Positions 19,334 through 62,756 of a stretch of DNA of 64,000 nucleotides are shown one piece after another. The stretch lies in NCBI RefSeq assembly GCF_024359525.1, contig NZ_JAKZEU010000006.1, positions 62,001 to 126,000 of the forward strand, given 5' to 3'. The stretch comes from Paracoccus albicereus (GTDB lineage Bacteria > Pseudomonadota > Alphaproteobacteria > Rhodobacterales > Rhodobacteraceae). Position 1 is the first letter of the stretch. Every line of letters begins with the position of its first letter. A program made the position numbers and the translations under genes. The notes below the pieces were generated by a model. It saw only the letters and a list, made by a program, of their open reading frames with translations, was not told where the DNA came from and did not search any database.

Positions 19334-19801
19334 TCAAGCGCGCGTATCGTCTTCCATCAGCCGGTCGAGACGCGACCGTTCGGCATCGCTCAGTGGGACC
19401 GGCGCGGCAATCTCGCGACGCGAGCGCAGGAAGCTCCACGCGATGATCAGCCCGATCAACGCAAGGATCGGTCCGGCCAGCCACAGGATCAGGTTGCCGC
19501 CACGCGCACGCGGTTCGAACAGGACGAACTCGCCGAAGCGGTCGGTGACCGCGTCGATGACCTCATCGTTGCTGTCGCCGTCCACCAGCCGCTCGCGCAC
19601 GTAAAGTCGCAGGTCCCGGCTGATTGGCGCGTTCGACTCGTCGATGTTCTCGCCCTGGCAAACCGGGCAACGCAGCTTCTGCGAGATTTCCCGCGCGCGT
19701 GATTCAAGCGCAGGATCGTCCAGCACCTCGTCGGGCTGCACGGCCAACGCCGCCGATCCGAGGCTCAACATCAGCGCCAGGATCAATCCGGCACGTTTCA
19801 T
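19334..19801 (-). CDS. ccmH: Cytochrome c maturation protein CcmH (Ccl2/CycL)
   Basis: 155-residue periplasm-facing thiol protein that reduces or presents apocytochrome c for haem ligation. It has a signal peptide (residues 1-20), the conserved LRCPVCQ motif with C45 and C48, and a C-terminal membrane helix (about 103-124). Its ATG overlaps the ccmF stop by 4 nt. Here it is the short CcmH without the TPR CcmI part. Confidence 0.95.
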   Translation of the reverse strand: MKRAGLILALMLSLGSAALAVQPDEVLDDPALESRAREISQKLRCPVCQGENIDESNAPISRDLRLYVRERLVDGDSNDEVIDAVTDRFGEFVLFEPRARGGNLILWLAGPILALIGLIIAWSFLRSRREIAAPVPLSDAERSRLDRLMEDDTRA

Positions 19802-21759
19802 TCCGCGGGCACCGCTGCAAGCCGCCGCGACCGCGCACCGGCCGCAACGCGATAGCGCCGGTCGGTCAGGCTGACCAATCCGCCCACGGCCATCAGGCCC
19901 GAGCCCAGCCAGATCCAGAAGGCGAAGGGTTTGACATAGGCGCGCACAGCCCAGCCCCCGTCCGCCTGCGCGTCGCCGATGACCAGATACAGGTCGCGGA
20001 ACAGCCCGCCATCGATCGCGGCCTCGGTCGTCGGCATAGCCTGGACGGGATAGACGCGCTTTTCGGGATGCATCACCGCCACCTCGCGCCCGTCGCGCCT
20101 GACCCTCATGGTCGCGGTCGTGGACAGGTAGTTCGGTCCCTGCACCTCGGCCACATCGACCAGCGTCACCTGATAGCCTGCGATGTCGAAGCTTTCACCC
20201 GGGCGGGCGACGCGGATATCCTCGACCTGCCACGCAGTCAGAAGGCTGACCCCGATGAAGGTCACACCGACGCCTGCATGGGCTATCGCCTTGCCCCAGT
20301 CGGCGCGCGGCAGACGTGCCAGACGCCCTAGACCCGCGCTGCCGGTACGGTGCCACAACTCGGCCGCCGCCCCGAAGATGAGCCACGCCCCCAGACCGGC
20401 GCCGATCACGGCGATGGAGGATCGTCCGGTCGAGACGGCAAAAACCAGGGTTGCCACAGCCAGCGCCAGTACCAGTGCCGCCGCCAGCGGGCGCGCGGCG
20501 CGCGCGATCTGCCCGCGCTTCCACGGCAGGATCGACCCCAAGGGCAGAACGATCGCCAGCACGATCATGAACGGCGTGAACGCCTTGTTGAAGAACGGCG
20601 CGCCGACCGACAGCTTTCGGTCCCATAGCAGTTCGGCCAGCAACGGCCACATCGTACCGACGAAGACGACCAAAGCCGAAACTGCCAGCAGGACGTTGTT
20701 CAGCACCAACGCCCCTTCGCGCGATACCGGCTGGAACACGCCTTTCGCCGTCATCGCGCCCGCCCTCGCCGCATAAAGCGTCAGAGCGCCGCCAACGAAG
20801 AAGGCGAGGATCGCCAGGATGAACACGCCGCGCGCCGGATCGCTCGCGAAGCTGTGGACCGAGGTGATGACCCCGGACCTCACGATGAACGTGCCGATCA
20901 GCGAAAAGCCGAAGGCCATGATCGCGAGCAGGATTGTCCAGCTTTTCAGCGATTCCCGCTTTTCCACGACGATTGCGGAATGCAGCAGCGCGGCTGCCAG
21001 AAGCCATGGCATGAAGCTGGCGTTTTCAACCGGGTCCCAGAACCAGAAACCGCCCCAGCCAAGCTCGTAATAAGCCCACCACGAGCCAAGGGCGATGCCG
21101 ACCGTCAGGAACATCCAGGCGGCCAAGGTCCAGGGCCGGACCCAGCGGGCCCATGCCGCATCCACCCGCCCCTCGATCAGGGCGGCGACGGCAAAGCTGA
21201 ATGACATCGAAAGCCCAACATAGCCGAGATACAGGAACGGCGGATGGAAAGCCAAACCGGGGTCCTGCAGCAGCGGGTTCAGGTCACGCCCGTCGAACGG
21301 CGGATTGGTGAAGCGCAGAAACGGGTTCGAAGTGAGGATGATGAAGGCCAGAAAGGCCACGCCGATCGCGCCCTGCACCGACAGCACCCGCGCGCGCAGG
21401 CTGGGTGGAAGATTGCCCCCGGCGACCGCCGCCGCCGCCCCGAACAGCGCGAGGATCAGCACCCAGAGCAGCATCGAGCCCTCGTGGTTCCCCCAGACGC
21501 CGGTGATCTTGTAAAGCATCGGCTTGGCCGTGTGGCTGTTCTCGTAGACCAGCCGGACCGAAAAATCCGAGGTCACGAAGGCCTGGGTCAAGGCCGCGAA
21601 CGAAATCGCGAGCAGCCCAAATTGCGCGATCGCCGCAGGACGGGCACTGTCCATCCAGGCGGGCGAACCACGATACGCGCCCACCATCGGCACCACGGTC
21701 TGAAACAGCGCGACCCCCAGTGCCAGGATCAGCGCGAAATGCCCAAGCTCCGCTACCAT
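19798..21759 (-). CDS. ccmF: Haem lyase CcmF
   Basis: 653-residue polytopic membrane protein, the core of the cytochrome c synthetase that joins haem to apocytochrome CXXCH motifs. The WWD haem-handling domain (WGGFWFWDPVENASFMPWL) is at about residues 230-250, with family-typical text such as GVWGNHEGSMLLWV before it. The ATG at 21759 has GGGGAG 8 nt upstream. It is coupled to ccmH downstream and separated from the holin gene upstream by a terminator. Confidence 0.96.
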   Translation of the reverse strand: MVAELGHFALILALGVALFQTVVPMVGAYRGSPAWMDSARPAAIAQFGLLAISFAALTQAFVTSDFSVRLVYENSHTAKPMLYKITGVWGNHEGSMLLWVLILALFGAAAAVAGGNLPPSLRARVLSVQGAIGVAFLAFIILTSNPFLRFTNPPFDGRDLNPLLQDPGLAFHPPFLYLGYVGLSMSFSFAVAALIEGRVDAAWARWVRPWTLAAWMFLTVGIALGSWWAYYELGWGGFWFWDPVENASFMPWLLAAALLHSAIVVEKRESLKSWTILLAIMAFGFSLIGTFIVRSGVITSVHSFASDPARGVFILAILAFFVGGALTLYAARAGAMTAKGVFQPVSREGALVLNNVLLAVSALVVFVGTMWPLLAELLWDRKLSVGAPFFNKAFTPFMIVLAIVLPLGSILPWKRGQIARAARPLAAALVLALAVATLVFAVSTGRSSIAVIGAGLGAWLIFGAAAELWHRTGSAGLGRLARLPRADWGKAIAHAGVGVTFIGVSLLTAWQVEDIRVARPGESFDIAGYQVTLVDVAEVQGPNYLSTTATMRVRRDGREVAVMHPEKRVYPVQAMPTTEAAIDGGLFRDLYLVIGDAQADGGWAVRAYVKPFAFWIWLGSGLMAVGGLVSLTDRRYRVAAGARSRRLAAVPAE

Positions 21760-21794: not shown

Positions 21795-21826
21795 GGGCCA
21801 AGGCGGGGAAAGCCCCACCTTGGCCC
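21795..21826 (-). terminator. Rho-independent terminator after the holin gene
   Basis: A 9-bp stem (GGGCCAAGG at 21795-21803 with CCTTGGCCC at 21818-21826) continues, after one mismatch, into GGGG/CCCC closed by a 4-nt loop. On the minus strand it is followed by AGCTTTTATGG. It isolates the lysis pair from ccmF. Confidence 0.8.
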
Positions 21827-21856
21827 GAACCTGTCAGCTTTGCGTGTGTTGCGGCC

Positions 21857-22429
21857 TCAGCCGCGCAGCGATGCGGTCCAGTCACGCAGCGCGGCGTTGT
21901 CGGCGAAGCTGTCGGTCTGCGCAGGCGCGGACGCGATCGGCGTCGGGAAGATCGAGTCGGAAGCGGTCGTGCCGCCGCTGACCTGAGCGGCGTCGTTCCT
22001 GACCGTCGTCTTTGTCACCGATGTCGGCCAGACCCGACCGCGAAAGTAATGTGCCTCGCGTGCGCCGAAATAGAAGCTGACGATCGCGCCCAGCAGCCAC
22101 CACAACGGCTCGGGCACCAGCGCGAGCCCCTCCATTCGCAGCGAGAATCCCACCGGCTCGGCCATCGCGTAGACGAACAGACCCAGCACGCCCAGCGTCA
22201 TCATCGGTCGTGGCAGACGGTTCATGCCGTTCACCAGGCTGTCGAACCAAGTTTTGGGCGCCTGCCCGAACTCCTGCCCGTGCTGGCTGATAGCGCGGGC
22301 ATAGGCCTCCTCGTCCAGCTCCATCCGGCGGGTGGCATTCTGGGTGAAAACCTCTGCGACGTTGCTGGCGGCGGTGCCGACCGCGCTGACCTGCGCGCCG
22401 ACATTGATGAAGCGGTCGATCACGCCCAT
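21857..22429 (-). CDS. GTA-type holin (3TM holin family)
   Basis: 190-residue membrane protein. Hydrophobic segments at about residues 75-91 and 108-122 are flanked by charged stretches, with a long hydrophilic tail. It matches the holin family described for gene transfer agent release (GTA_holin_3TM). It overlaps the endolysin gene upstream by 10 nt, the usual lysis-cassette arrangement. It should let the endolysin reach the cell wall. From memory the R. capsulatus counterpart is rcc00556. Confidence 0.85.
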   Translation of the reverse strand: MGVIDRFINVGAQVSAVGTAASNVAEVFTQNATRRMELDEEAYARAISQHGQEFGQAPKTWFDSLVNGMNRLPRPMMTLGVLGLFVYAMAEPVGFSLRMEGLALVPEPLWWLLGAIVSFYFGAREAHYFRGRVWPTSVTKTTVRNDAAQVSGGTTASDSIFPTPIASAPAQTDSFADNAALRDWTASLRG

Positions 22430-23031
22430 TGTGCGGTCCTTTCGCGATGCTCTGCGGCAGTCAGGTGATACTGCGGTGCGATAAATTCCTCGGCCCGCGT
22501 GATCCAGCCGCCCTTGCCGCCGTTGCGGGCGCGGGCATATTTGCGGCTGGCGGCGCGGGCATCGGCCAGCGCGTAATAATAATTCCGCCGCGCGATCCCG
22601 TAGGCGTCGGCCAGATGCAGCGGCGCGGCTGCGGCCGCCGCATTGCAGGCCCCCAGCGTTTTCGGACCGACGACACCGTCATCCTTGGCGGCAAAGCCCA
22701 TGCGCGACACCAGCCGTTGCAGGATCTTCACCGCGTTCGCGCCGGCATTGACGTACATGTCGAAAACGCTTGGCTGGATCGCCGGCGGCAGACCGGCGAT
22801 GCCGGGACGACGGAAATAATGCTCGACGAAGATCTGCGTGGCCTGGTCGCGGGTCAGCGCCTTGACGTCGGCGGTATCGACCTTGCCGTCCCCGGTCAGA
22901 TCCAAACCCAGCCTGCGCATCGTCCCGATCGTGACGCCGTATTTCGTCGCACCACCGGGATCGTCGGGGTCGTTGACGTAGCCCCCTTCACGCGCGACGA
23001 TTTCCGTCGCGATCTCTTCGACTGTGCGCAT
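22420..23031 (-). CDS. GTA-type endolysin, glycoside hydrolase family 108
   Basis: 203-residue peptidoglycan hydrolase. The catalytic motif EGGYVND starts at Glu15, as in GH108 (N-acetylmuramidase) lysozymes. A C-terminal peptidoglycan-binding region (about 105-175, DGVVGPKTLGA) follows. There is no signal peptide, so it needs the holin encoded next. Start at ATG 23031, with a GGGGG site; the GTG just before is less likely. A perfect CtrA box lies 45 bp upstream. From memory it corresponds to rcc00555 of R. capsulatus, which lyses cells to free GTA particles. Confidence 0.88.
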   Translation of the reverse strand: MRTVEEIATEIVAREGGYVNDPDDPGGATKYGVTIGTMRRLGLDLTGDGKVDTADVKALTRDQATQIFVEHYFRRPGIAGLPPAIQPSVFDMYVNAGANAVKILQRLVSRMGFAAKDDGVVGPKTLGACNAAAAAAPLHLADAYGIARRNYYYALADARAASRKYARARNGGKGGWITRAEEFIAPQYHLTAAEHRERTAQWA

Positions 23032-23038
23032 CACGCCC

Positions 23039-23062
23039 CCTTTTTCGGCCCATCCGAAAAGG
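23039..23062 (-). repeat. Inverted repeat before the endolysin start
   Basis: CCTTTTTCGG / CCGAAAAGG with a 5-nt loop (9 pairs, one bulge), between the CtrA box and the ribosome-binding site. If transcribed, the hairpin would crowd the GGGGG ribosome site of the endolysin; alternatively it is a protein operator. Confidence 0.4.
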
Positions 23063-23075
23063 TGGCGGAACAGGG

Positions 23076-23090
23076 TTAACGCGCCCTTAA
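23076..23090 (-). promoter_or_regulatory. Perfect CtrA-type box before the lysis pair
   Basis: TTAA-CGCGCCC-TTAA, an exact TTAA-N7-TTAA match, 45 bp upstream of the endolysin start and between it and ccmE. CtrA is known to be needed for GTA gene expression and lysis in Rhodobacter capsulatus. Confidence 0.7.
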
Positions 23091-23113: not shown

Positions 23114-23572
23114 TCAGGAGTTGGGGTCCTGGTAGACGCCGGCTTCCTTCAGCGTGTCGACGACTTCGCGTGGCATGTAGCTTTCATCGTGCTTGGCCAG
23201 CAGGTCGCTCGCTTCGAAGCGGCCCTCGCGGAAATGGCCCTTGGCGATCGTGCCCTGCCCTTCCTTGAACAGATCGGGGCGCGGATCGCGGCCAACATAG
23301 GCGACCGGGATCTCGGTCGCGCCGTCGGTCACGACGAAATCGAAGGCCACGCCGTCACGGTTCACGATCGAGCCTTCCTTGACCAGACCACCGATCTGGA
23401 AATACTCGTCAGGCGAGGGTGGCGCCTCGCTGACCTGGCTAGGCGAGCGATAAAGGTTGATGCCGTCGCGAAAGCCGTAACCGATCAAGCCGGCCGCGAT
23501 CACCAGCGCCAACATAGCCGCCGTGATGACCTGAATACGCCGCCGCTTCTTCAGCGATTTCATGCCTGCCAT
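23114..23572 (-). CDS. ccmE: Cytochrome c maturation haem chaperone CcmE
   Basis: 152-residue membrane-anchored periplasmic protein that carries haem covalently to CcmF. It has an N-terminal anchor (about 13-33) after a KKRRR cytoplasmic end, a beta-barrel region, and the haem-binding HxxxY motif (H128, Y132). ATG 23572 has GAGGAGG upstream. It lies 10 nt after murI. Normally adjacent to ccmF, here it is parted from it by the endolysin/holin pair. Confidence 0.95.
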   Translation of the reverse strand: MAGMKSLKKRRRIQVITAAMLALVIAAGLIGYGFRDGINLYRSPSQVSEAPPSPDEYFQIGGLVKEGSIVNRDGVAFDFVVTDGATEIPVAYVGRDPRPDLFKEGQGTIAKGHFREGRFEASDLLAKHDESYMPREVVDTLKEAGVYQDPNS

Positions 23573-47881: not shown

Positions 47882-47896
47882 TTAACGAACCCTTAA
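47882..47896 (+). promoter_or_regulatory. Perfect CtrA-type box before the Hint-domain gene
   Basis: TTAA-CGAACCC-TTAA, an exact TTAA-N7-TTAA match, 80 bp before the TTG start of the Hint-domain gene. The intergenic region is 145 bp and otherwise AT-richer than its surroundings. Confidence 0.65.
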
Positions 47897-47976
47897 CCAT
47901 TCCACCCGTAATTCTCTGTGCAAAATCAGGGACAAAGTCCCGTGTTTGCGTGGCGTATCGGCCGTGGAGGGCAGTG

Positions 47977-49146
47977 TTGGACTACAAGATCCTGGTGCTC
48001 ACGATCAGCACCCCCGTTCCGACCGGAAGTTCGTCACCCGGCCGGTACGAACCCTGGTTCAATGCCAGCAGGATCACAATGCCTGACGCGAAGCTGTCCA
48101 CGATCACCGTGAGTGACAGCGACGGCAAGCTGGAAAACGTCCAGCTTGCCGTAACTGAAACCGAACAGAGGCTGGTTGAGTCGGCAACCTTCGGATCGGG
48201 CGGCAACGCCACGACCATCGCGGCCGGGACGCAACTGAACTACGCCTTCAATTCGATCATTCGCGACGATGCAGGTAACGAGTTTCTTGTCACCTTTCCG
48301 CGCATCGGGACGGGGCTGACCCCGTCCGAGATTGGCGGCAAGACGTCGGTTCTGGTATTCCCGCGGCCGGTGAAGAATGCAGATGGGACCGTGAAGCTGG
48401 GTGCCGATGGTAAGCCAGTCTTTCCTCAGTTTGATCCAGCGCGTACCTTCACCTATGCAGGCCGCGACCAGTACTCCAGCACAAACTATGGACTTAGCTA
48501 TTCCTATCCCAGCGCGGTGGATTGCTTTGCAGCAGGCACGTTGATCGACACGCTGTTCGGTCCGCGACCGGTCGAGCAGTTGCGTGTGGGTGACATGATC
48601 CGGACACGGGACAACGGCATGCGCTGGCTGTCGTGGATCGGCGGAACCAGGGTCGACGCCGCGCGGCTTGACCTGCAGCCAAACCTGCGGCCGATCCGCA
48701 TCGCGGCGGGTGCGCTTGGCCACAGACTGCCCTTTGCCGATCTGATCCTATCCCCTCAACATCGGGTACTGGTCCGCTCGGCCATAACCCAGCGGATGTT
48801 TGGCGAGGTCGAAATATTGGTGGCTGCCAAGCATCTGGTTGGGATGCCGGGGATCGAGGTGATCGTCCCCGATGATGGTGTGACCTACTTCCACATGCTC
48901 TTCGACGGCCATGAACTGGTGCTGTCAAACGGAGCCTGGACCGAAAGCCTCTTCACCGGGGCGCAGGCTCTGGAAGCAGTGGGGGACTCCGCGCGGCGCG
49001 AGATTGTCGCGTTGTTTCCGCACCTGTCCGATCCCGACTTTCGCCCCGAAGGTGCCCGCCGATTCCTGAAGGGTCGCGAAGGCCGGCAACTGGCCGAGCG
49101 TCACCGAAAGAACGGCAAGGCGCTGTGCGACACGCTCGCTATCTGA
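47977..49146 (+). CDS. Hint (Hedgehog/intein) domain protein
   Basis: 389-residue protein. The C-terminal half is a Hint_2-type domain that begins at Cys183 (VDCFAAGTLIDT), continues with PVEQLRVGDMIRT and DLILSPQHRVLV, and ends near residue 330 at ELVLSNGAW. Such domains, common in Rhodobacterales surface or secreted proteins, can self-process. The N-terminal ~180 residues form an unrecognised beta-rich domain. The start is TTG 47977, with GGAGG 6 nt upstream; a GTG at 47974 is too close to it. A perfect CtrA box precedes the gene. Confidence 0.82.
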   Translation: MDYKILVLTISTPVPTGSSSPGRYEPWFNASRITMPDAKLSTITVSDSDGKLENVQLAVTETEQRLVESATFGSGGNATTIAAGTQLNYAFNSIIRDDAGNEFLVTFPRIGTGLTPSEIGGKTSVLVFPRPVKNADGTVKLGADGKPVFPQFDPARTFTYAGRDQYSSTNYGLSYSYPSAVDCFAAGTLIDTLFGPRPVEQLRVGDMIRTRDNGMRWLSWIGGTRVDAARLDLQPNLRPIRIAAGALGHRLPFADLILSPQHRVLVRSAITQRMFGEVEILVAAKHLVGMPGIEVIVPDDGVTYFHMLFDGHELVLSNGAWTESLFTGAQALEAVGDSARREIVALFPHLSDPDFRPEGARRFLKGREGRQLAERHRKNGKALCDTLAI

Positions 49147-52296: not shown

Positions 52297-53124
52297 TCAG
52301 AGGTAGTCGTCCAGTCCGAGGAGCTGATTCATGCTATGTGCCGGCTCCGAACAGCCAGCATCGCCTATAACACGTGCCGGAACGCCGGCGACCGTCTTGC
52401 AGGGTGGCACTTCGTGCAGCACCACCGAACCTGCGGCGATGCGCGAATGATGCCCGATCCGGATATTGCCCAGAACCTTCGCACCAGCGCCGATCAGTAC
52501 GCCATTGCCGATCTTCGGATGACGATCGCCATCTTCCTTACCGGTCCCGCCGAGCGTCACAGAGTGCAGCATCGACACATCATCGCCGACCACAGCCGTT
52601 TCACCGATGACGATGGAATGGGCGTGGTCAATCATGACACCAGTGCCGATGCCTGCCGCAGGATGAATATCGACGCCGAAACATTCCGAGCAACGCATCT
52701 GCACGAAGTAAGCCATGTCGAACCGCTCGTGCGTCCACAGCCAATGGCCGATTCGATAGGCCTGTAGCGCCTGAAAACCCTTATAGAACAATAGCGGCTG
52801 GATCAGACGGTGTGTCGCAGGATCGCGATCATAGACTGCCATCAGGTCGTTTCGTGCGGCATCGCCAAGCGCAGGCGAATCCGCATAGGCATGGTCGGCC
52901 AATTCCCGCAGGATCTGCTCGCTCATCTCGCCCGAGGCAAGCTTGAGCGAAAACCGATACGCCAGTGCCGCCTCGAGACTGTGATGGTGCAGCAACCCCG
53001 CATGGATCAATGCACCCAGCAGCGGTTCGTTTCTCACAGCCTCTGACGCTTCGTCGCGGACCTGGCTCCAGATCGCCTCACGGATCGGGGCGCTCTGACT
53101 GGAAGCTTTGGTCTGAAGATTCAT
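52297..53124 (-). CDS. cysE: Serine O-acetyltransferase
   Basis: 275-residue enzyme for the first step of cysteine synthesis. A helical N-terminal domain (about 15-145) precedes a left-handed beta-helix of hexapeptide repeats (about 150-250; GVDIHPAAGIGTGVMIDHAHSIVIGE). C-terminal tail MNQLLGLDDYL. The gene lies just downstream of the GTA cluster on the same strand; from memory cysE is a frequent neighbour of GTA clusters in Rhodobacterales. Confidence 0.95.
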   Translation of the reverse strand: MNLQTKASSQSAPIREAIWSQVRDEASEAVRNEPLLGALIHAGLLHHHSLEAALAYRFSLKLASGEMSEQILRELADHAYADSPALGDAARNDLMAVYDRDPATHRLIQPLLFYKGFQALQAYRIGHWLWTHERFDMAYFVQMRCSECFGVDIHPAAGIGTGVMIDHAHSIVIGETAVVGDDVSMLHSVTLGGTGKEDGDRHPKIGNGVLIGAGAKVLGNIRIGHHSRIAAGSVVLHEVPPCKTVAGVPARVIGDAGCSEPAHSMNQLLGLDDYL

Positions 53125-53194: not shown

Positions 53195-53914
53195 TCATGC
53201 CGATGGCAAGCGGAGTTCAAGCCAGTGTACCGCAAGCCGGACCTTTCCCGAGCCAGAAAACGTACCTGCACTGGCCGTCATCAGAAGTTCGGCAGGCTGA
53301 TAATAGGTCATTGGCTGCCCTAGCATTCCACGTGCCCAGGATCCGGTCGACGTCCCGAGACCGCTTCCAAAGCGATCCTCGGCACCATCCGTGCCAAGCT
53401 TCCAGCTTGAGAGGCTGCCGCCGATTGCGGTTACAACCCTTGCGACCGCCCCGATGACCATTGCCCCCGCCGGAATAACAACTCCCGTGGCGACGGTCTC
53501 GCCTGCGCTCACCATGATCTCCGCTTCCTCCATCCCCTCCAGCATCGAGGAACCGAGCATACCAAGCGACGCAGCACCGAGGCTCCAAGCTGTGCCCGTG
53601 TGAATCGCCCTGACTCCTCGATCCAGCACGAACGCCTGCATCCCGCGGGTGATCCGTACAAAGACCCATCCGCCGTTACTCGCAATCGCGATACGCCCGA
53701 TTTGGCCTGACCATGCGCCGGTGGCACCACCGGGCACGCCCCAGCATTCACCATCCTCAGGATCCGCAGGCGGAACGCCGACGCTGATGCTTTGCAACAC
53801 CAGATTCGTCAGTCCGTCGATCCGCATCAATGCTTCGTTGACGGTGACGTGCTTCTGAGCCTGCGCCGGCTGCAGCAGAGGCAACGCAAGACGATTGGTT
53901 TCAGTAATCGACAT
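53195..53914 (-). CDS. DUF2793 protein, probable GTA tail-fibre-like
   Basis: 239-residue protein. The N-terminal LALPLLQPAQAQKHVTVNEALMRID is the DUF2793 signature (about residues 1-90). The C-terminal half is a beta-rich domain (about 115-239) without recognised relatives. It starts 2 nt after the baseplate gene, so it belongs to the GTA operon. From memory the R. capsulatus GTA tail fibre, encoded elsewhere (rcc00171), belongs to this group; a receptor-contacting role is inferred. Confidence 0.75.
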   Translation of the reverse strand: MSITETNRLALPLLQPAQAQKHVTVNEALMRIDGLTNLVLQSISVGVPPADPEDGECWGVPGGATGAWSGQIGRIAIASNGGWVFVRITRGMQAFVLDRGVRAIHTGTAWSLGAASLGMLGSSMLEGMEEAEIMVSAGETVATGVVIPAGAMVIGAVARVVTAIGGSLSSWKLGTDGAEDRFGSGLGTSTGSWARGMLGQPMTYYQPAELLMTASAGTFSGSGKVRLAVHWLELRLPSA

Positions 53915-53916
53915 GG

Positions 53917-56900
53917 TCAGAAAACCTCTTTGATGAACGGCCCGGCACCCACAAGCTCGGACAATTGCGCGACAGCGATCGTGATCGCCCCTGTTGTCCG
54001 TGTCTCCGTCCAGACCGTCTCCGGGATGGTATATTCGGGGCGGGTGACGGTCGCCTCATGGACGGTCGCGCCACCGCTCTGAATCCGAACAAGATACTCT
54101 TCTCGGCTCTCACCCAGCGGGACATCGGTTCCTTCCCAGCCATCGCCCTCTATGCGGGTCCTGCGCACCCACGATATGCGACGCCCATCAAGACGAAGAT
54201 GACAGGGCGCGTAGGGCCGCAGGCCGATCCCGCGAAGGCTCAACGGCAGCGAACGATAACTCGGGTCATCGGCAGCCTTCTTGGCTGGACCAATCCGCCA
54301 GAAACGTTCTTGCCCACGCCAGGCAGGCGGTACTGAGATCTGCTCAACAGCCTTGTTTAGAAGGACGACGACGCTACCAGCCGGCCACAATTCGGGCATG
54401 ATCCCATCGGTGCCTGCCTGACCGCGAAGCCTGTCGCTGATTTCCCAGCGTCCGTCACCCAAAGGTGTGGCAGTTCCGAACTGGAAAACTTCCCAAGATC
54501 CGCCCTGTCCGTTACCGATAGCCATAGCGTTGGCGCCAGCCAGCAGGCCCGCCATCGAAGCGGCTGACAAGTTTCCACCCTTGATACGAACGCGTAAAGG
54601 CGATCCCCGGTCCACCAGACCGATACGCGCGCGTCGTAAGCCGGTCTCTGTCACACCCACGACGGCACAGCGCGTTGCAACGCCTTGGTATTCATAGCCG
54701 CCTGCTGGATCAACTGACGCAAAGGCAGCGACGCTGCCCTGCCACGGTGTCGCCGTCGCCGCGAGATACGGAGCATGCGGCAATTCATCCCCGCGCAGAA
54801 GTGGCAGATCTAGGAACGTCGCCCAAACAGGCATCAGCGGACGATAGGCGGGCCCTCCCGCAACTTCGAGAAGCGACTCAGCCGGTTGGTAGGCTCCATC
54901 ATCAACCCTAACTGCATCGACCAGACCAACACCGGCCCTTTCAACTCGGTCGATACGCCAGCGATAATGCTCAGCGACGCCATCTTCGAAGCGAATGATG
55001 TCACCCGCCCCCAACTGCGCCCGCGACGGAGGTAACGCAAAGCGAACACTATCCCTGGCCACTCTGGATTCGGCGAGCCAGCGCTGCGCGATTGCACGAC
55101 CTTCCGGGCGCGTAAGGGCAAGCGGATACTCGGTCTCGGACGTGACTGAGGATACATCGTCCGGCAGCATTGTCTCTGCCGTAGTCGTTTCGTAATCGCC
55201 CCCCGCTTCAATATGCGTCAGGCGAATCTGCCCCGCGAGTTCTGGCTCGGGTGCCCGGGTCAACTCCAGCCCGCTCAGGTCATCGGAGAGCGCCAGATCG
55301 CTCGCCTTCAAGGTTGCTATCGCCCGCGCGGACCGGGTCACAAAGCGGATCATGCCATCCCGTTCGATCGCGTCGAAGCCGAAGGCAAGCATCAGCGGCT
55401 GCAGCGCCGAGCGTCCTGTCTCGGCACCCTCGAGCGCGAAACCGCGAACGAGTCCTTCAAGCCTTGTAACATCAATTTCGGTCACGCCAGCATCGACGCA
55501 AATATCTGTTACAACACCTGACAGCGGGACCGCGCCTGCACGACCGTTGAGCCAATGACCCCGCTCCCACGCCGGACCGTCGGACCACAGGTCGTGCCGC
55601 TGCGGGAATGCGGGGTAAGGCCGCGCATCCCAGCACCAGACATGGGCACGCCCCATATCGACTATCGCTCGTCCGTCAGCCATCCGCGGATTGTTAGCGG
55701 GATCGGCCCAATAGGCGTTGACAGCCTCAAGATAGGCAGCTTGCAAGGCGTCGTCGCGCATCCCGTTCGAGAAATGCGGCAACGCGCTTTCCGAGCTGAA
55801 TGCATCAAGGAACTTGTTCGGCTGGTTGGTAGCCTTGTCCAGTGCCGCGCAGCCATACTCGGTAAACCAGAACGGCTTGGAGGCTGGCACCCATTCAGTA
55901 GGGGTCGACTTGCGAACGCCTCCGATCCGCTCGTGATGCGTGTTACCCCACCAACCGCGCAGATCCTTGTACCGCCAGACCCAAGGCTCATCGTGCGCGC
56001 CGTCGGTAATCGATACACGGCGCTGCGCCCGGCGGTCATCTTCGGATGGGTAGTACCAGTCGTAGCCTTCGCCACCAGCCACGTTCGCGGCAAGATAACG
56101 CGGATTGCGCACGCTGCCCCAGTGCGCATCGAGATGGTCGTCTCCATCCCGCCAATCGGACAGCGGCATGTAATTGTCGATACCGACAAAGTCGATATTG
56201 GCGTCAGCCCACAGCGGATCGAGGTGAAACCGCACGTCCCCGCCGCCCGGGTGGTGCCCAAAATACTCCGACCAGTCCGCAGCGTAGCTGAGCTTGACAT
56301 CGGGCCCCAGGATTCTACGGCAATCAGCCGCGAGACGGACCAGGGCGGCCACCGCAGGGTAACGTCCGCCCGACGTCCGGATCTGGGTCATCCCAACCAT
56401 TTCCGACCCGATCAGGAAGGTGTCGACACCGCCTGCCGCCGCACAAAGATGGGCGTAGTGTAGAATGAAGCGTCGATACGACCATTCGGACGGCCCGCTA
56501 TATAGAATGCGAGTACCGTCACGCTGAAAATCCTCCACCTTCGCTGTGCCGAAAAACTGCGCCACTTCTGCGGCTGCAGCGGCGCTCCCGTCGGTTGAGC
56601 CGGCCTGCCCCGGAGCCTTCTCAGTGGTGATGCGTCCTCGCCAAGGCATGGGCGCCTGTTCGCCTCCACCGTAGGGATCCGGCAAACCGTTGCCCTCCTG
56701 CTGTTCCATCAGAATGAACGGATAGAACACGGCCTTTCGTCCGGATGCCGCAAGCGCTCGCAACGCCTCCACAACAGACTGATCGCCCGGCGTGCCGCCA
56801 TAGATCGGTCGACCATCGCGCCGCGCAACCTCGCGCGCGCTTTCACGTGCAATTCCGCCTGCCCGCCACGGCATGTTGCCGCCATCACGCTCCCGGTATT

Positions 56901-57789
56901 CGACCTTGGGCCTCACCTCGCACCGGCCGATCCTCAGATCGTCGCCGAACCAGGACACAACCAGCGATACCGATTTCGCTCGCGGCAACTCTCGTTCTAG
57001 AACCTTGAGCGAGGCAGAGAAATCCGTCCCTCCAAGCGGCGTGTTCTCATTGAATGCGACGGTCTCACCAAGACCAAGGTCAGCCTCGACTCGACTCGTA
57101 GCCAACGCATATTCGCCCGTACCGGGGATCATCGCGACGGCGCGAACGTCGCGGCTGACACCGCCTCCAGTCTGGGCCGGTCGCGTGACCTCGAAGGACA
57201 ACTGCGGCATGCGGTTGCCCCATCGCTCAAGGCTCAGGTTTTCCAACACGACGTAGGCGATGCCACGATAGGCCGGGGCCTCTGCTCCTTCCCACGAAAC
57301 AATGGCGGAATCAGGCAGCTGGCTCTCATCGCCTTCATAGACGCGCATGTTGAGGTCGTCGGCGGTGACTTCCTCTCCGTCAGCCCAGACTCGACCGACA
57401 CCATTGATCGCACCTTCGCAGAGCGCCAACGCGACCGACATCGTGTAACTGATTTCGGTGACCTGCGGCTGCGGGGCACCCTTTCCCGCGCCGCCCTGCG
57501 ACGTGCGCACTTCCTCCAACGGCGACGCCCAGATGACATGGCCAGGCACCCGCATCTGACCCCAGACCTTTGGGATGTGCATGCCTTCGCCTGCCGACTG
57601 AAGGCGCAAGCGGTCGATCCGCCCCGTCTCGACCGGCTTCGAGCCCTGCCCCAGCAGGCGCTGGTCGATGACGCGTCCCACCGACGCACCGACTGCACGA
57701 CCAACCACTGCCCCGGAAAGGCCCAGCAATGTTCCACCGAAGCCGGAACCCAGCGATGCTCCGACGGCAGATAGGACCAACGTGGCCAT
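53917..57789 (-). CDS. GTA baseplate multidomain protein (g15, megatron)
   Basis: 1290-residue protein that forms the tail-tip assembly of the gene transfer agent. The N-terminus is glycine- and alanine-rich and hydrophobic (about 1-45). A TIM-barrel-like GTA domain spans about 420-720, with PFWFTEYGCAALDK near 640 resembling a glycosidase acid region. A phage tail-protein domain (about 790-960) and a C-terminal beta-rich domain follow. It is the largest GTA gene and ends the canonical g1-g15 order. The neighbouring NlpC/P60 gene lies 22 bp upstream. Confidence 0.93.
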   Translation of the reverse strand: MATLVLSAVGASLGSGFGGTLLGLSGAVVGRAVGASVGRVIDQRLLGQGSKPVETGRIDRLRLQSAGEGMHIPKVWGQMRVPGHVIWASPLEEVRTSQGGAGKGAPQPQVTEISYTMSVALALCEGAINGVGRVWADGEEVTADDLNMRVYEGDESQLPDSAIVSWEGAEAPAYRGIAYVVLENLSLERWGNRMPQLSFEVTRPAQTGGGVSRDVRAVAMIPGTGEYALATSRVEADLGLGETVAFNENTPLGGTDFSASLKVLERELPRAKSVSLVVSWFGDDLRIGRCEVRPKVEYRERDGGNMPWRAGGIARESAREVARRDGRPIYGGTPGDQSVVEALRALAASGRKAVFYPFILMEQQEGNGLPDPYGGGEQAPMPWRGRITTEKAPGQAGSTDGSAAAAAEVAQFFGTAKVEDFQRDGTRILYSGPSEWSYRRFILHYAHLCAAAGGVDTFLIGSEMVGMTQIRTSGGRYPAVAALVRLAADCRRILGPDVKLSYAADWSEYFGHHPGGGDVRFHLDPLWADANIDFVGIDNYMPLSDWRDGDDHLDAHWGSVRNPRYLAANVAGGEGYDWYYPSEDDRRAQRRVSITDGAHDEPWVWRYKDLRGWWGNTHHERIGGVRKSTPTEWVPASKPFWFTEYGCAALDKATNQPNKFLDAFSSESALPHFSNGMRDDALQAAYLEAVNAYWADPANNPRMADGRAIVDMGRAHVWCWDARPYPAFPQRHDLWSDGPAWERGHWLNGRAGAVPLSGVVTDICVDAGVTEIDVTRLEGLVRGFALEGAETGRSALQPLMLAFGFDAIERDGMIRFVTRSARAIATLKASDLALSDDLSGLELTRAPEPELAGQIRLTHIEAGGDYETTTAETMLPDDVSSVTSETEYPLALTRPEGRAIAQRWLAESRVARDSVRFALPPSRAQLGAGDIIRFEDGVAEHYRWRIDRVERAGVGLVDAVRVDDGAYQPAESLLEVAGGPAYRPLMPVWATFLDLPLLRGDELPHAPYLAATATPWQGSVAAFASVDPAGGYEYQGVATRCAVVGVTETGLRRARIGLVDRGSPLRVRIKGGNLSAASMAGLLAGANAMAIGNGQGGSWEVFQFGTATPLGDGRWEISDRLRGQAGTDGIMPELWPAGSVVVLLNKAVEQISVPPAWRGQERFWRIGPAKKAADDPSYRSLPLSLRGIGLRPYAPCHLRLDGRRISWVRRTRIEGDGWEGTDVPLGESREEYLVRIQSGGATVHEATVTRPEYTIPETVWTETRTTGAITIAVAQLSELVGAGPFIKEVF

Positions 57790-57811
57790 GGGCGTTCTCC
57801 TGAAAGTCAGG

Positions 57812-58240
57812 TCATGGGAAAAGGAACCTGGCGGCGATGCGTCGTCGCCAGGGCGTACTCAGCGGGCTCTCGACAACGCCATGACGGTCGTAAGCGTGAA
57901 TGAAGGCCGCGTGCTCTCCCGTCTCGGACAGCACGCCCAGATGTTTCGCAACGCCGCCTTGACGCATCCGGAACAGAAGCACCTCACCCGGCACCTCGAC
58001 CGCTGCCGCATGCACCGGTCGCAGGTGCCGCAACGCACCGGCCAGCAACACTTCTTCTCGGCCGCATTCGCCCCAATCTGGGGTGTAGGCCGGCGCCACT
58101 TCTGGTTCAGAGCCGTAGCGCTCACGCCACAAGCCGCGGATCAGACCAAGACAGTCCGTTCCGGCGCCATTTGCGCTGTGTTGATGAATGTATGGGGTCC
58201 CGATCCAGCGCCGCGCCATATCAACGACGTCAGCTGTCAT
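57812..58240 (-). CDS. GTA NlpC/P60 cell-wall peptidase (g14)
   Basis: 142-residue cysteine peptidase carried in the particle tail to open peptidoglycan during DNA entry. Catalytic C30 (GTDCLGLIRG) and H100 (AKHLGVL), with H115 as probable third residue. ATG 58240 overlaps the end of the hub gene by 11 nt; an in-frame start 16 codons upstream is less likely. Length matches g14 of R. capsulatus. Confidence 0.92.
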   Translation of the reverse strand: MTADVVDMARRWIGTPYIHQHSANGAGTDCLGLIRGLWRERYGSEPEVAPAYTPDWGECGREEVLLAGALRHLRPVHAAAVEVPGEVLLFRMRQGGVAKHLGVLSETGEHAAFIHAYDRHGVVESPLSTPWRRRIAARFLFP

Positions 58241-59120
58241 CGCCCGACCTGCCGCTGTAAGGCTGAAACTGCGCAACCACGGCAACATCCTTGCGGCGCT
58301 TTTCGACCTGAGGCGCGACTAGCCAATCCTCTCCCGGCATGTGCGGAAAGCCACGAAAATTCAGATAGTTGTCGAACTTATCGCGACAGCAGGCCCCGCT
58401 CTTGTCGCAGCCCGCGGTCAAGCTTACCCTGTCGCCCACCGCCATAGGTGCGCTTGCAGCAGCCCAAAGTTCGATCTGCCGGCGCCCAACTGAAAGCAGA
58501 CGGTCGTTTTTGATGGGCGCCGTGACACCCGAGCAGGCGCCACTAAGGACACTCATCGACCCATGGTCGAACCAACGCGCCCTGTAACCCACCAGGGTAT
58601 CGATCCGAAACGTCCTGTCATCGTCAATCGCGACGATACTCGCTTCGACCCGCAATTGTGCCTGCTCAAGATCGACCTTGCACCAACGATCGCCCAAGCG
58701 GGCCGAACAACGCGGGTGATAGGCCCGTCCCATGGACTTGTTTAGCGCCTCGGACAGGCCACGCAGCTCGGCACGAAAGCCGCCACCTCGTCGTGACACC
58801 TCGCCGATATGACCACGAAATGCCAAACGCCGCTGAGAAGGATCGCTCCAGTCTACTTCCCACATGCTCAGTTCCGCACCATCCCATCGCCCAGCGATCA
58901 GGTCGGTCTCGGTGATGGCTTCGTCGCTCAGCGCGCCTTCAGCCTCGGTGTTGTCGACCGAAAGTCCGACCGCCTGCACAAGAGCGCGCGCCGACAGTCC
59001 GCTATCCGGTCGAAAGACCACACCATCGAATTCCAAGGGGCCGTCGTGATCAGTAAACCCCAATGTGGTGCCGTCTGACCGGTTGATCCGCCAAGCGCGC
59101 GCGATCGTTGTCGTCGTCAT
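58230..59120 (-). CDS. GTA hub protein (g13, DUF2163 / phage BR0599 family)
   Basis: 296-residue tail hub component. DUF2163 covers most of the N-terminal 200 residues and a cysteine-rich C-terminal domain follows. Cysteines at 138, 147, 196, 238, 244 and 245 could bind an iron-sulphur cluster, as reported for the R. capsulatus GTA hub (from memory). It overlaps g12 by 4 nt and g14 by 11 nt. Confidence 0.92.
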   Translation of the reverse strand: MTTTTIARAWRINRSDGTTLGFTDHDGPLEFDGVVFRPDSGLSARALVQAVGLSVDNTEAEGALSDEAITETDLIAGRWDGAELSMWEVDWSDPSQRRLAFRGHIGEVSRRGGGFRAELRGLSEALNKSMGRAYHPRCSARLGDRWCKVDLEQAQLRVEASIVAIDDDRTFRIDTLVGYRARWFDHGSMSVLSGACSGVTAPIKNDRLLSVGRRQIELWAAASAPMAVGDRVSLTAGCDKSGACCRDKFDNYLNFRGFPHMPGEDWLVAPQVEKRRKDVAVVAQFQPYSGRSGDDS

Positions 59121-59749
59121 ATCCGCACCTCGATGATGGGAACCTGCGGCAGATCGCCTGCTCGGAAGGACGCCACCGATACCGCGATCCGGTCGGTGTC
59201 GAAGCGCACGGGCACGTCGAACTCGAAACCAGCCGTAACGCTGGCGCCGACGTCCGGCGGAACCGCAAAAGTGCAGGTACCCGTGTCATGGTCGATGGCG
59301 TAATCGAGCGTCTGAACTCTTTCGACGCCGCCAACACCAGCTCGGACACTGTTAAGAACCGGCTTCTGGATCGGCCGCAGGTAACTCACCCCGCCGGACG
59401 AATAAGCCTTCGTCAGCGAGAATTCACGCCGGACTCCGTCGCCGATGCCGATGACCTGATCTTCGAATCCCGGTTGGACCGAGGGCGCACAGCTCTTGTG
59501 ATCGGCCCAGTCCTTCCAGCGAAAGCCATGCATCTGTCCGCCGCGCGCCTCGAAGAAGGCCAGAAGCTCGGACATGTCGTCCAAGGATCGCAGTCCCATT
59601 CCCGCATCGTAGCGCCGACGCGAGTGCGCCCAAGGACTGTTGCGCTCTTCGAAGCCACTGGTCAGCGTGACGATCTCGGTCCGGCGCTCAGGACCTCCGA
59701 TCGACCCCAGTGACAGGTTTGCGGGAAAGCGCACATCATGAAATGCCAT
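59117..59749 (-). CDS. GTA distal tail protein (g12, DUF2460)
   Basis: 210-residue DUF2460 / TIGR02217-type protein. MAFHDVRFPANLSLGSIGGPERRTEIVTL is the family's N-terminal pattern, and the aromatic EARGGQMHGFRWKDWADHK stretch (about 70-88) is diagnostic. It forms the distal tail ring below the tape measure. The 3' end overlaps g13 by 4 nt (ATGA). Confidence 0.92.
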   Translation of the reverse strand: MAFHDVRFPANLSLGSIGGPERRTEIVTLTSGFEERNSPWAHSRRRYDAGMGLRSLDDMSELLAFFEARGGQMHGFRWKDWADHKSCAPSVQPGFEDQVIGIGDGVRREFSLTKAYSSGGVSYLRPIQKPVLNSVRAGVGGVERVQTLDYAIDHDTGTCTFAVPPDVGASVTAGFEFDVPVRFDTDRIAVSVASFRAGDLPQVPIIEVRI

Positions 59750-59758
59750 TCTTGGACC

Positions 59759-60409
59759 TCACCCGTTCCGTTCACCACGAGCCAGTGCGCGGCCCAATTG
59801 CGCCGCGATTTGCGACTGACTTCGGCGGAATCCTTCGACGTCCGGTGTCGAGATGTTGATGGTGACCTGAGTTGCGCGACCACCTTGCGTCGCGACACCC
59901 AATCGACCGTCGGCGCCACGGGTCAGTGGCATGATCGCTTCTGGTCCCGCCTCGCCCATGAGCCCCGTGGCGCCGCGCATGGGGAAATGCGTCGGCTGCG
60001 TCACCACGCCGCCCTTCGCAAAGGCCATCACCCTACCCTGGCTGAAGGCGCCGCCATCGGCGAAGGGTTTGACGCCTGAGATCATGTTGCCGAGACCGCC
60101 AGCGATGGAACCTGCCAGCGCCTGCTCGACGGGCTTCATGGCGATGGAATAAATCGTGTCGGCCATCGTTCGCGCGACGCCCTTCAGCGCGTCTGATAGT
60201 TTAAGTCCATCAAAGGCCACCCCCTCGAAGGCTCTCCTCAGACCGCCTTCGAGACCCGAGGACAAAGTGCCGACCTCACGGCTGGTGAACATCATGGATT
60301 GGCGCAGCCGCGCCAGTTCACGCTCGAATTCCGCGGTCACGCGGCCACCTTGATCGAACCCCTCGTCCAGACGGTCCGACGCGCTGTCGAACCCGCTTCT
60401 GTCTGCCAT
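59759..60409 (-). CDS. GTA tape measure protein (g11)
   Basis: 216-residue tape measure, far shorter than in long-tailed phages, fitting the short tail of GTAs. It has a helical N-terminal half, a glycine/alanine-rich hydrophobic middle (ALAGSIAGGLGNMISG), then FADGGAFSQGRVMAFAKGGVV and EAGPEAIMPLTRG, typical of minor tail or tape proteins. ATG 60409 has AGGAG 7 nt upstream. Confidence 0.9.
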   Translation of the reverse strand: MADRSGFDSASDRLDEGFDQGGRVTAEFERELARLRQSMMFTSREVGTLSSGLEGGLRRAFEGVAFDGLKLSDALKGVARTMADTIYSIAMKPVEQALAGSIAGGLGNMISGVKPFADGGAFSQGRVMAFAKGGVVTQPTHFPMRGATGLMGEAGPEAIMPLTRGADGRLGVATQGGRATQVTINISTPDVEGFRRSQSQIAAQLGRALARGERNG

Positions 60410-60442
60410 GTCCGCGCTCCTCGTCATGCTTCCGGATCAAGC

Positions 60443-60652
60443 CTAGCGTTGGTCCGGATATTTAGCGGCAAGTTCGGCCAGCCGATCCCGCGTCATCATC
60501 TTGGGGTGCGCATCAACGCCCAGCATCATCGCCAACTCCGCTGGGCTGAGCGCCCAAAAGTCGGCGGGCTTCAACCCCAGTCCGCGAATGCCCGCTCGCA
60601 TCAGTCCGGGCCAGTCGAGCCCATTTGCTTTCGCGTCCGAGCCGACACTCAT
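60443..60652 (-). CDS. GTA tail assembly chaperone (g10.1, rcc01693-like)
   Basis: 69-residue helical protein. WPGLMRAGIRGLGLKPADFWALSPAEL matches the TIGR02216 small chaperone that precedes g11. Its ATG overlaps the g10 stop by 4 nt (60649-60652). It probably assists tail-tube assembly on the tape measure. Confidence 0.88.
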   Translation of the reverse strand: MSVGSDAKANGLDWPGLMRAGIRGLGLKPADFWALSPAELAMMLGVDAHPKMMTRDRLAELAAKYPDQR

Positions 60653-60960
60653 GCGAAGCGAAACGCTCGTGCGAGCAATTCAGCCGCCGAGCGTGCAGCG
60701 CCGAGTGGCCCGCCACCGATATCCGCGTTGAGCAAATCGCCGGTGTCGCCTCTCCAGCCGCCGCCGCGCAACCCGGCGACCAGAACCGCCAGAACGTCCC
60801 GGCTGCGAAACTGACCACTCTCGAAGCGCTCGACCATCGCCAGTAGGCTGTCATCTCCCAACGATGCCTCCATCTCAGCCAATGCGCCGAGCGTCAGCTT
60901 GGCGGTCTGCGCGCGGCCATCGATCACGACCGAGACCTCCCCGGATTGCGGGTTAGCCAT
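60649..60960 (-). CDS. GTA tail tube chaperone-like protein (g10)
   Basis: 103-residue GTA family protein (Phage_TAC_11-like). The pattern LTLGALAEMEASLG...FRSRDVLAVLVAGLRGGG is characteristic. The start ATG 60960 shares one base with the stop of g9 (TGATG). With g10.1 it corresponds to the paired tail-assembly chaperones of siphophages. Confidence 0.9.
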   Translation of the reverse strand: MANPQSGEVSVVIDGRAQTAKLTLGALAEMEASLGDDSLLAMVERFESGQFRSRDVLAVLVAGLRGGGWRGDTGDLLNADIGGGPLGAARSAAELLARAFRFA

Positions 60961-61373
60961 CACATCGCCTCGAATGTCAGGGCCCCGGCCGAGGACATGC
61001 TCAGCTCGTAGGTCGCCTCGCCGTTGTAGCTGCCGGAATACTCCAGACTGGTGATCTGGAAGGGACCTTCGACAGTGCCGAAATCAGGGATGATGACCTG
61101 ATAGCGCGGCATCTCTCCGTCAAAGAAAATCTGTCTTGCTCGTCCATCCGTGCTGGCGTCACGGAACACACCCGAGCCTGACAGGGTCGCGCTGCGCATC
61201 CCCGCACCGCCCAGCAACTCGCGCCAGCCGCCCTCGCTCTCCAGGCTTGTGACGTCGACCGTCTCGGCGTTGAACGACAGTCGCGTTGCGCGCAGTCCGG
61301 CCACCGTTTCGAACGCGCCGTCGCCGGTCATGTCCATCTTGATCAGAAGATCACGTCCATTCTGTACAGCCAT
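60960..61373 (-). CDS. GTA major tail tube protein (g9, TP901-1 family)
   Basis: 137-residue beta-sandwich protein that forms the tail tube. NGRDLLIKMDMTGDGAFETVAGLRATRLSFNAETVDVTS is the TP901-1-like N-terminal pattern. Coupled to g10 through TGATG. Length normal. Confidence 0.93.
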   Translation of the reverse strand: MAVQNGRDLLIKMDMTGDGAFETVAGLRATRLSFNAETVDVTSLESEGGWRELLGGAGMRSATLSGSGVFRDASTDGRARQIFFDGEMPRYQVIIPDFGTVEGPFQITSLEYSGSYNGEATYELSMSSAGALTFEAM

Positions 61374-61386
61374 CGGTCCCTACTCC

Positions 61387-61806
61387 TCAGCCTAGATCAA
61401 TTCGGGCGCGGAAGGTCAGATCGACTCGCCGCGCCGCGCCGTTTTCAACCCGTCGCGCCTTGGCGCGTTGGAACCAGATCGCCGTCAGATGTCCCTGCTC
61501 CAGTTCGACACCGCCGTTCTCCAGCGCGTCCGACACTGCAGCCGCGACGCGCTTGACCGAATGGAAGCCAACGCTCTGATCGCTTCCGGCTAGAACCGAC
61601 ACGACGAAGTCATGACGTGAACCGCGTCCGGTCATATCACCCGCATCGACGGCATCTTCGGGGCCTAATGAGACATAGGGCCCGCTTGGAGCCTCGACCG
61701 GCATCGCGTCAAAGATCGAATCCCCGATCAGATCCGACAGGGCCGGATCGTCGCGCAGATGGCGATATACGGCCGCCTGAAGCGCCACTGACGATGAATA
61801 GCTCAT
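61387..61806 (-). CDS. GTA tail terminator protein (g8, DUF3168)
   Basis: 139-residue DUF3168 protein. The N-terminus SSSVALQAAVYRHLRDDPAL and the middle PYVSLGPEDAVDAGDMTGRGSRHDFVVSVLA fit the family. It closes the tail top at the head-tail junction. It lies 3 nt after g7. Confidence 0.92.
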   Translation of the reverse strand: MSYSSSVALQAAVYRHLRDDPALSDLIGDSIFDAMPVEAPSGPYVSLGPEDAVDAGDMTGRGSRHDFVVSVLAGSDQSVGFHSVKRVAAAVSDALENGGVELEQGHLTAIWFQRAKARRVENGAARRVDLTFRARIDLG

Positions 61807-61809
61807 GCC

Positions 61810-62142
61810 TCAATTCTCCTCGTGCGCGAAGCAGGTCAGCCAGCGTCCATCAGCGCCATCTTCGGTCACCGCATCGATCAGGAAGAACCGTCCCGCCATA
61901 CGCAGCCTCTGCCCTGGACGGGGCCGCCTGGGGTCGCCCGGACGGGCGCCGCGCAGTGTGATCCGCCAGTTGGCCACGCTGACCGGCCCAACCTCGCCGC
62001 CGCGTTCGCGGCCGCTGCCGCTTTTCAGCTCGGCCCAAAGCCGCGCGACGGGCCGCCAGTGCAGCCCGTGTCCGCCCATTCCGTCGGAAACCCGCTCGGC
62101 CTCTTCCAGGATCAGCGGGGTGCAAAGCCGTGGTGCGACCAT
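61810..62142 (-). CDS. GTA head closure protein (g7)
   Basis: 110-residue head-tail adaptor of the SPP1 gp16-like family. Segments such as GGHGLHWRPVARLWAELKSGSGRER and GQRLRMAGRFFLIDAV match. The ATG shares one base with the g6 stop (TGATG). Confidence 0.9.
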   Translation of the reverse strand: MVAPRLCTPLILEEAERVSDGMGGHGLHWRPVARLWAELKSGSGRERGGEVGPVSVANWRITLRGARPGDPRRPRPGQRLRMAGRFFLIDAVTEDGADGRWLTCFAHEEN

Positions 62143-62756
62143 CACCGGGCCTCCCGGCTGCCGCGCCCGGCAAGCGTGCGGATCTGCCTCCAGCGGTCGA
62201 TCAGCGCGCTCACGCCATGCGGTACGCCGCTACGCGACCCATCAAATCCGCGATCCTCGTAATAGCGCGATGCCAGCATCAGCACAGCCTGCGCCAGATC
62301 GCCCGGCACGTTCGACCAAGCCTGTCCGAAACCGGCCGTGAAGGTGATCGTGACCATGCCCCGACGCGGCACATGAGGCAGGATCACACCGGCAGGCAGG
62401 ATCGTCGGCCGTTGCAAGTCGGGAACCAGACGCCAGTTCTCGACCGGCAATTCCGTGACCGTTCCGTTGCCGTCGTCGATCTCGATCCGGTCGACGGATA
62501 GGACCGGAGCAAGCGGCAGCGTCTGACCCAGCCGGTCGCGCCAGTCATCCAGCTGCATCCGGAAGCGGCGCGTCAGAAGCACCTTGCCTGTCCGCGCCTC
62601 GATCGTCGCGATCGCGGCACGCAGGAAGCCAGCCAGCGCCGCGTTCTCGGCCGCATCGTCCACCAGGTCGAAGCCCGAGCCGAGCCGCAAATATTCCGCG
62701 AGTTCGGCGATGGGCAGGGCATCCGCCGCAAGCGCCGCTTCTTCGATCAACATCAT
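62142..62756 (-). CDS. GTA head-tail connector protein (g6)
   Basis: 204-residue adaptor protein (phage gp6-like connector). An acidic helical N-terminal half is followed by beta-rich segments; YYEDRGFDG near the C-terminus is typical. It stacks below the portal. Start 62756, or the adjacent ATG 62753, which is better spaced from GAGGG. A 189-bp gap with a long hairpin separates it from the capsid gene. Confidence 0.88.
   Translation of the reverse strand: MMLIEEAALAADALPIAELAEYLRLGSGFDLVDDAAENAALAGFLRAAIATIEARTGKVLLTRRFRMQLDDWRDRLGQTLPLAPVLSVDRIEIDDGNGTVTELPVENWRLVPDLQRPTILPAGVILPHVPRRGMVTITFTAGFGQAWSNVPGDLAQAVLMLASRYYEDRGFDGSRSGVPHGVSALIDRWRQIRTLAGRGSREAR

Follow-up and report, generated by a model that had tools for sequence, protein, structure and literature searches.

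Results and discussion

Gene content of the locus

The window analysed here is a stretch of 64,000 nucleotides from Paracoccus albicereus (contig NZ_JAKZEU010000006.1, positions 62,001 to 126,000 of the forward strand). One part of it is transcribed from the minus strand in the order murI, ccmE, GH108 muramidase, holin, ccmF, ccmH (Table 1). Family models bear out what a preliminary description had read from the DNA, namely that a GH108 muramidase (the lysin) and a GTA_holin_3TM holin lie between ccmE and ccmF, that the pair is of the R. capsulatus GTA (RcGTA) lysis type and that a GTA structural cluster is found about 30 kb away in the same window. The pair was assigned to the RcGTA-type lysis cassettes on the basis of the match of the lysin to the GH108 model, the PF11351 protein downstream of it, the presence of an RcGTA-like cluster and a CtrA-type site.

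Table 1. Positions in the window of the lysis pair, its neighbours and the GTA cluster
Feature	Position	Strand	Basis
Complete CtrA-type site TTAA-N7-TTAA	23076-23090	minus	exact match; 41 nt upstream of the lysin ORF
Endolysin (GH108 N-acetylmuramidase + PG_binding_3)	22420-23034	minus	Pfam, NCBIfam family models
Holin, GTA_holin_3TM family	21857-22429	minus	PF11351
Hairpin, terminator-like, between holin and ccmF	21795-21826	minus	stem scan
ccmE, upstream neighbour of lysin	23114-23572	minus	family models
ccmF, downstream neighbour of holin	19798-21756	minus	family models
ccmH family gene, after ccmF	19334-19801	minus	family model
GTA structural cluster, within-window part (DUF2793 protein, GTA_TIM tail protein, hub-domain protein, capsid)	53195-64000	minus	
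GTA_TIM/Rcc01698_C protein	53917-57789		domain match
GTA capsid	62946-63977		domain match

The lysin ORF opens with GTG, but an ATG at position 23031 fits the relatives better and is the likely start. Its product matches GH108 (PF05838) with 95 bits and PG_binding_3 (PF09374) with 67.7 bits in Pfam, as well as the NCBIfam model of holin-associated N-acetylmuramidases (NF040573) with 356.4 bits against a cut-off of 240. The glutamate of the EGG motif, which we take to be the catalytic residue, is kept along with many other columns across 16 aligned lysins, and no export signal was seen in the muramidase by eye. The holin gene follows directly downstream, its start overlapping the end of the lysin gene by 10 nt. 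The protein scores 100.9 bits (cut-off 24.8) against GTA_holin_3TM, a family described as serving gene-transfer release, and is without a match in NCBIfam and PHROGs.

Behind the holin gene lies a hairpin with a stem of 14 pairs, of which 11 are G-C; a short T run, AGCTTTTATG, comes next. The preliminary description had called this a strong terminator; the hairpin is indeed there and is predicted to act as a terminator, but the scan found three terminator-like sites in total against 3.6 in shuffles, so that this one is distinguished by its stem length alone. The gap between holin and ccmF measures 81–112 nt in 25 other Paracoccus loci, except for L058 (259). In a comparison of these 25 loci made without a shuffled control, the best hairpin is often, though far from always, a G-run/C-run stem of the same kind, and it is weak in L063 and L079.

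All neighbours scanned between 18.5 and 24.4 kb are host genes (murI, ccmE, ccmF, ccmH and an enoyl-CoA hydratase), with no phage gene adjoining the lysis pair among them. The RcGTA-like structural cluster is found elsewhere in the same genome; only a part of its ORFs in the window was scanned. Its large terminase lies beyond the end of the window on the same contig, as presumably do portal, protease and small terminase, which were named by gene order. A second GTA_TIM-domain protein, encoded outside the window (C16:28878-29774), scores above the one in the window and possibly belongs to a prophage.

Conservation of the position

The arrangement of these genes was compared in 149 genomes sampled from the order, which all belong to a single family. 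A match to ccmF is present in all 149 and one to ccmE in 148, whereas a lysin was detected in 144 (143 over the cut-off) and a holin in 142. In 127 of the 144 genomes with a lysin, the latter follows closely behind ccmE (at most 917 nt from the CcmE domain), and it is linked to ccmE and/or ccmF in 139. In detail, at least 100 genomes have both neighbours, at most 27 have ccmE only (three of these being without a ccmF row among the matches listed), 12 have ccmF only and five have neither. Eight genomes are without ccmF among the matches listed; five of them were checked, and ccmF was found behind the holin in all five. Within the 80 named loci ccmE lies upstream of the lysin in 75, and an annotated record (CP038202.1) shows the same order of murI, ccmE, lysin, a hypothetical gene, ccmF and ccmH.

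Outside the family the situation is different. CcmF was matched in 89 genomes from other families, of which the 29 best-scoring loci were examined. In 27 of these ccmF adjoins ccmE, with a gap of –3 to 250 nt, and the remaining two have no ccmE match in the roughly 560 nt available. A lysin over the cut-off was found in one of 112 genomes of other families in the class (G535), where it is accompanied by a holin with no ccm match in the 3.6-kb locus; 21 more genomes gave weaker matches. One genome, G145, has an empty site with 195 nt between ccmE and ccmF.

The view that ccmE and ccmF are normally adjacent therefore holds outside the family but not inside it, where comparison of the gap across Rhodobacterales shows the lysis pair to be the usual occupant. 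What had looked like a local anomaly is an old, family-wide arrangement, and a rule of this kind points to the ancestral location of the pair. A single insertion in the stem lineage, mostly kept by descent and followed by later losses and moves, would be the simplest account, whereas a recent or chance insertion is ruled out by the family-wide position. The apparent oddity thus becomes a rule with a clear ancestral state: GTA-type release genes, present in 69 of the 72 genera sampled, are mostly found at one chromosomal place behind ccmE.

The promoter of the lysis genes

The 79 bp that separate ccmE from the lysin gene contain the exact sequence TTAACGCGCCCTTAA, confirming the complete TTAA-N7-TTAA noted earlier upstream of the pair. 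This pattern occurs 22 times in the 3.66 Mb of the genome and its reversed control 11 times, suggesting that about half of the sites in this genome may be due to chance; from the genome-wide count, approximately 0.0005 sites would be expected in a gap of 79 bp.

For the comparison of promoters, 80 named loci were used, 25 of them titled Paracoccus (including the near-copies L040 and L044) and 55 others. An exact site within 200 nt upstream of the lysin is present in 23 of these 25 other Paracoccus loci and in none of the 55, the two exceptions (L049 and L058) having the site with one mismatch; the remaining 952 kb of the named loci contain one exact TTAA-N7-TTAA. Two further Paracoccus records from PLSDB likewise have the exact site. 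In 48 of the 55 non-Paracoccus loci a TTAA was found in the corresponding interval, compared to 1.3% of random stretches, approximately where the downstream half-site lies in Paracoccus. Most of the family thus has a single half-site in place of the complete predicted CtrA-type site of Paracoccus, a contrast that may represent one evolutionary gain because the loci are kin. This clade-limited regulatory change from a half-site to a complete site is directly testable.

In addition, 23 of 26 Paracoccus rows have the motif GCAACGC in front of the lysin, compared to three of the 55 others and 1.3% of random stretches. Repeated GTTGCG-like elements were seen in Paracoccus upstream of the GTA small terminase, in front of a TTGACT-type promoter (L212-L218), an observation resting on ten loci, as the small terminase was matched in 10 of 30 GTA loci. 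These repeats are possible activator sites of the Paracoccus GTA promoters. One GafA motif shared by the lysis promoters (GCAACGC) and the GTA promoters (GTTGCG) was considered and rejected; the two are similar, but the extra letters are on opposite sides. A search of the genome for gafA by its DnaA-like domain gave a single match, which was taken as DnaA, so that gafA was not located.

Other complete CtrA-type sites exist in this genome. A second one in the window (47882-47896) lies 53 nt before the gene of a Hint-domain protein on the plus strand (47950-49146) and adjoins a class II DAHP synthase encoded on the opposite strand. Outside the window such sites were found upstream of lexA and comM (L200 and L204); these two are included among 20 candidate proteins, the others of which look unrelated. 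In Dinoroseobacter shibae, CtrA sites are likewise predicted at lexA and com genes, according to section 24 of PMC6473078.

Comparison with R. capsulatus and other known systems

The lysis genes of R. capsulatus, rcc00555 and rcc00556, resemble the pair described here in that an endolysin is followed by a holin, both are located apart from the structural cluster and the promoter carries CtrA-type elements. They are reported to need CtrA and to be bound and raised by GafA (PMC6363796), and PMC4158056 describes them as co-expressed with the GTA cluster. According to PMC9638019 the R. capsulatus promoter has putative CtrA half-sites, in contrast to the complete site in the window.

Of 394 sampled genomes, two contain an exact match to a published forward primer for the rcc00555 promoter (PMC6854486). 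In one of them (G295) the match lies inside argC (TIGR01850, 376.8 bits), which is immediately followed by ccmE and the lysin; the reverse primer was not found in this locus (L113) within three mismatches. In the second genome the match falls in an unrelated region. Four loci titled Rhodobacter (L055, L074, L075 and L087) have ccmE upstream of the lysin, which together with the primer match upstream of ccmE in G295 makes it probable that the RcGTA lysis genes are located in the same place, and suggests that rcc00555 as well may lie behind argC and ccmE.

In D. shibae, the endolysin and holin Dshi_1756/1757 are described as involved in GTA release (PMC6473078), but the CtrA sites listed in section 24 of this article omit them. 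A statement on the adjacency of GTA lysis and ccm genes was not found in the accessible literature, including the portions of PMC5742617, PMC8456105, PMC8346489 and PMC7561429 that could be consulted; the multilocus-genome papers on RcGTA were outside the scope of this survey, and we do not claim that the adjacency is unpublished. The kind of cassette was already known. The extent of its conservation, the polarity of the change, the complete site limited to Paracoccus and the persistence after loss of the GTA cluster were not met in print within this partly accessible literature.

Origin and function of the lysis cassette

Taken together, we consider it probable (roughly 80%) that the pair represents the RcGTA-type lysis cassette in a Paracoccus-like bacterium, a phage-derived module which was inserted between ccmE and ccmF at the stem of the family, has mostly been inherited in this place by descent and releases particles by lysis driven by CtrA and GafA. 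The identity of the genes, their location and its conservation, and the predicted site with its clade limits are established here; control by CtrA and GafA and the lytic role in Paracoccus would follow by analogy from the published work on R. capsulatus.

The sequence of events would then be as follows. After the two-gene module had entered the junction between ccmE and ccmF in the stem lineage, phosphorylated CtrA and the GTA activator GafA would activate the lysin promoter behind ccmE late in GTA production. The holin would open the inner membrane, and the muramidase, for which no export signal was seen, could reach and cut the wall. The cell would burst and GTA particles would be released, while the hairpin behind the holin may limit read-through into ccmF.

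Relation to the cytochrome c maturation genes

Another explanation for the position is that it was kept because the pair shares its expression with the cytochrome c maturation genes. All of them are on the same strand with short gaps, and the lysin lies close behind ccmE in most genomes. In addition, codon adaptation in 14 of 3,477 gene families, ccmE among them, follows that of the GTA genes across 208 genomes (PMC9765227, section 9), a correlation that keeps shared expression with haem-protein biogenesis possible. That section explains such genes as stress-expressed chaperones and mentions neither the position of ccmE nor lysis genes. Moreover, the arrangement is confined to one family and cannot alone explain a correlation over many orders. 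The adjacency to ccmE offers a positional cause that can be tested for it. The CtrA-type site of the pair and the hairpin behind the holin argue for expression separate from the ccm genes, and the lysin is found with ccmE but no nearby ccmF, or with ccmF but no ccmE, in the minorities of genomes given above. Selection for shared expression is considered an unlikely reason for the conserved position.

Persistence of the lysis genes without the GTA cluster

In 11 of the 149 genomes, belonging to eight genera (loci L242-L252), the GTA cluster has collapsed. At the junction the large terminase, at about residue 172, is fused to the tail protein g15 at about residue 640, and cysE is still found alongside, indicating that the cluster between them is gone. 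A serine acetyltransferase gene (cysE, 52297-53124) adjoins the GTA cluster in the window as well. The junction is practically identical in ten of the genomes, and L250 has it at this spot with the frame broken; in 9 of the 11 a long fused frame remains open. When collapsed genomes were compared with intact congeners, the flanks were genus-like, clearly in g3 and g7 and less clearly in g25. The junction could have arisen by recurrent deletion at one short similarity or by the spread of a short tract, or it may reflect faulty data. No such junction was found in a scan of IMG/VR, and in PLSDB the fused protein matches Paracoccus records over the tail part, at one place and over at most 80% of the query.

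Lysin and holin are both kept in 10 of the 11 genomes with a collapsed cluster. Two draft genomes (G095 and G142) have no terminase or GTA_TIM match and retain both lysis genes. Conversely, three of the five genomes without a lysin keep strong GTA markers, one has a collapsed cluster and one a split terminase. The lysis pair is thus only loosely tied to the structural cluster. Such cluster-less genomes provide a natural setting in which to ask if the lysis genes of GTAs act on their own. Partial decay of the pair was seen in two genomes, one with the lysin but no holin match (L263, G085) and one with a shortened lysin and a trace of the holin (L262, G042).

The idea of a fossil finds no support in these sequences. 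No stops were found within the main lysin match of any genome or within the holin matches, among the matches listed. Within genera, and where it is defined, dN/dS amounts to 0.04–0.21 for the lysin and 0.03–0.30 for the holin; it is low for both genes whether or not a pair includes a collapsed genome, but dS is often near or beyond saturation, and several within-genus pairs leave it undefined. The estimable pairs point to strong purifying selection on the lysis genes.

These observations raise the question of whether the pair is a general host lysis module under CtrA control whose use extends beyond GTA release. Its persistence after loss of the cluster, including both genomes without either GTA marker, and the low dN/dS in pairs with collapsed genomes would be explained in this way. 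The losses may, however, be recent, as the fused frame is still open in most of these genomes; low dN/dS fits such recent losses as well as an independent role, and with most dS values near saturation, selection that was relaxed after a recent loss would stay unseen. In addition, PMC3423380 and PMC6854486 describe the genes of R. capsulatus as serving GTA release. We regard a general lysis module as distinctly improbable. The same low degree of probability is given to the bolder version of it, in which a host-owned, CtrA-governed module for self-lysis would have been located behind ccmE since the origin of the family, would have outlived the GTA cluster, would serve lysis beyond GTA release and, by its coupling to ccmE, would help to explain the codon usage of the latter.

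Viral relatives and phylogeny of the lysin

The phage-derived nature of the RcGTA-type cassette is reflected in its viral relatives. IMG/VR contains 121 relatives of the lysin; the best 80 of these 121 were kept and are 57–71% identical to the lysin of the window. A holin match is present in 74 of these 80 loci, corresponding to 54 of 59 distinct lysins, so that the cassette is a phage module and not exclusive to GTAs. The viral cassettes share both gene families and their order, often with an overlap. They differ from the pair in the window in that ccmE, ccmF, ccmH and murI have no match in the 80 loci and that their lysins fall outside the Paracoccus clade to which the window lysin belongs. 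INPHARED contains no record that covers 80% of the lysin; the best of the matches listed is 45.8% identical over 56%, and no match to the holin was found.

The preliminary description had named best homology to ordinary prophage lysins as an observation that would speak against it. The closest relatives are instead the ccm-linked copies of Paracoccus, with identities of up to 82%. In a tree of 136 lysins, built after removal of exact duplicates and of viral rows with more than 90% identity, the window lysin falls into a clade of 26 rows, all from Paracoccus and all ccm-linked, with an SH-aLRT value of 100 and no viral rows. A remnant of, or recent acquisition from, an ordinary prophage that became a neighbour of the ccm genes by chance would account for the two-gene module common to most IMG/VR loci and for viral lysins of up to 71% identity, but is very unlikely; a remnant is rejected by the host genes on both sides together with the tree, this origin is largely refuted by the conserved position, and the INPHARED result also speaks against it.

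Outside Paracoccus the ccm-linked and viral rows mix, and at least four changes of the ccm label are forced by the starred branches of the tree, the label "unlinked" depending on the length of DNA in a locus (L010 is labelled unlinked although ccmF lies at 3.9 kb). In other genera, exchange between prophages and the ccm locus is therefore possible.
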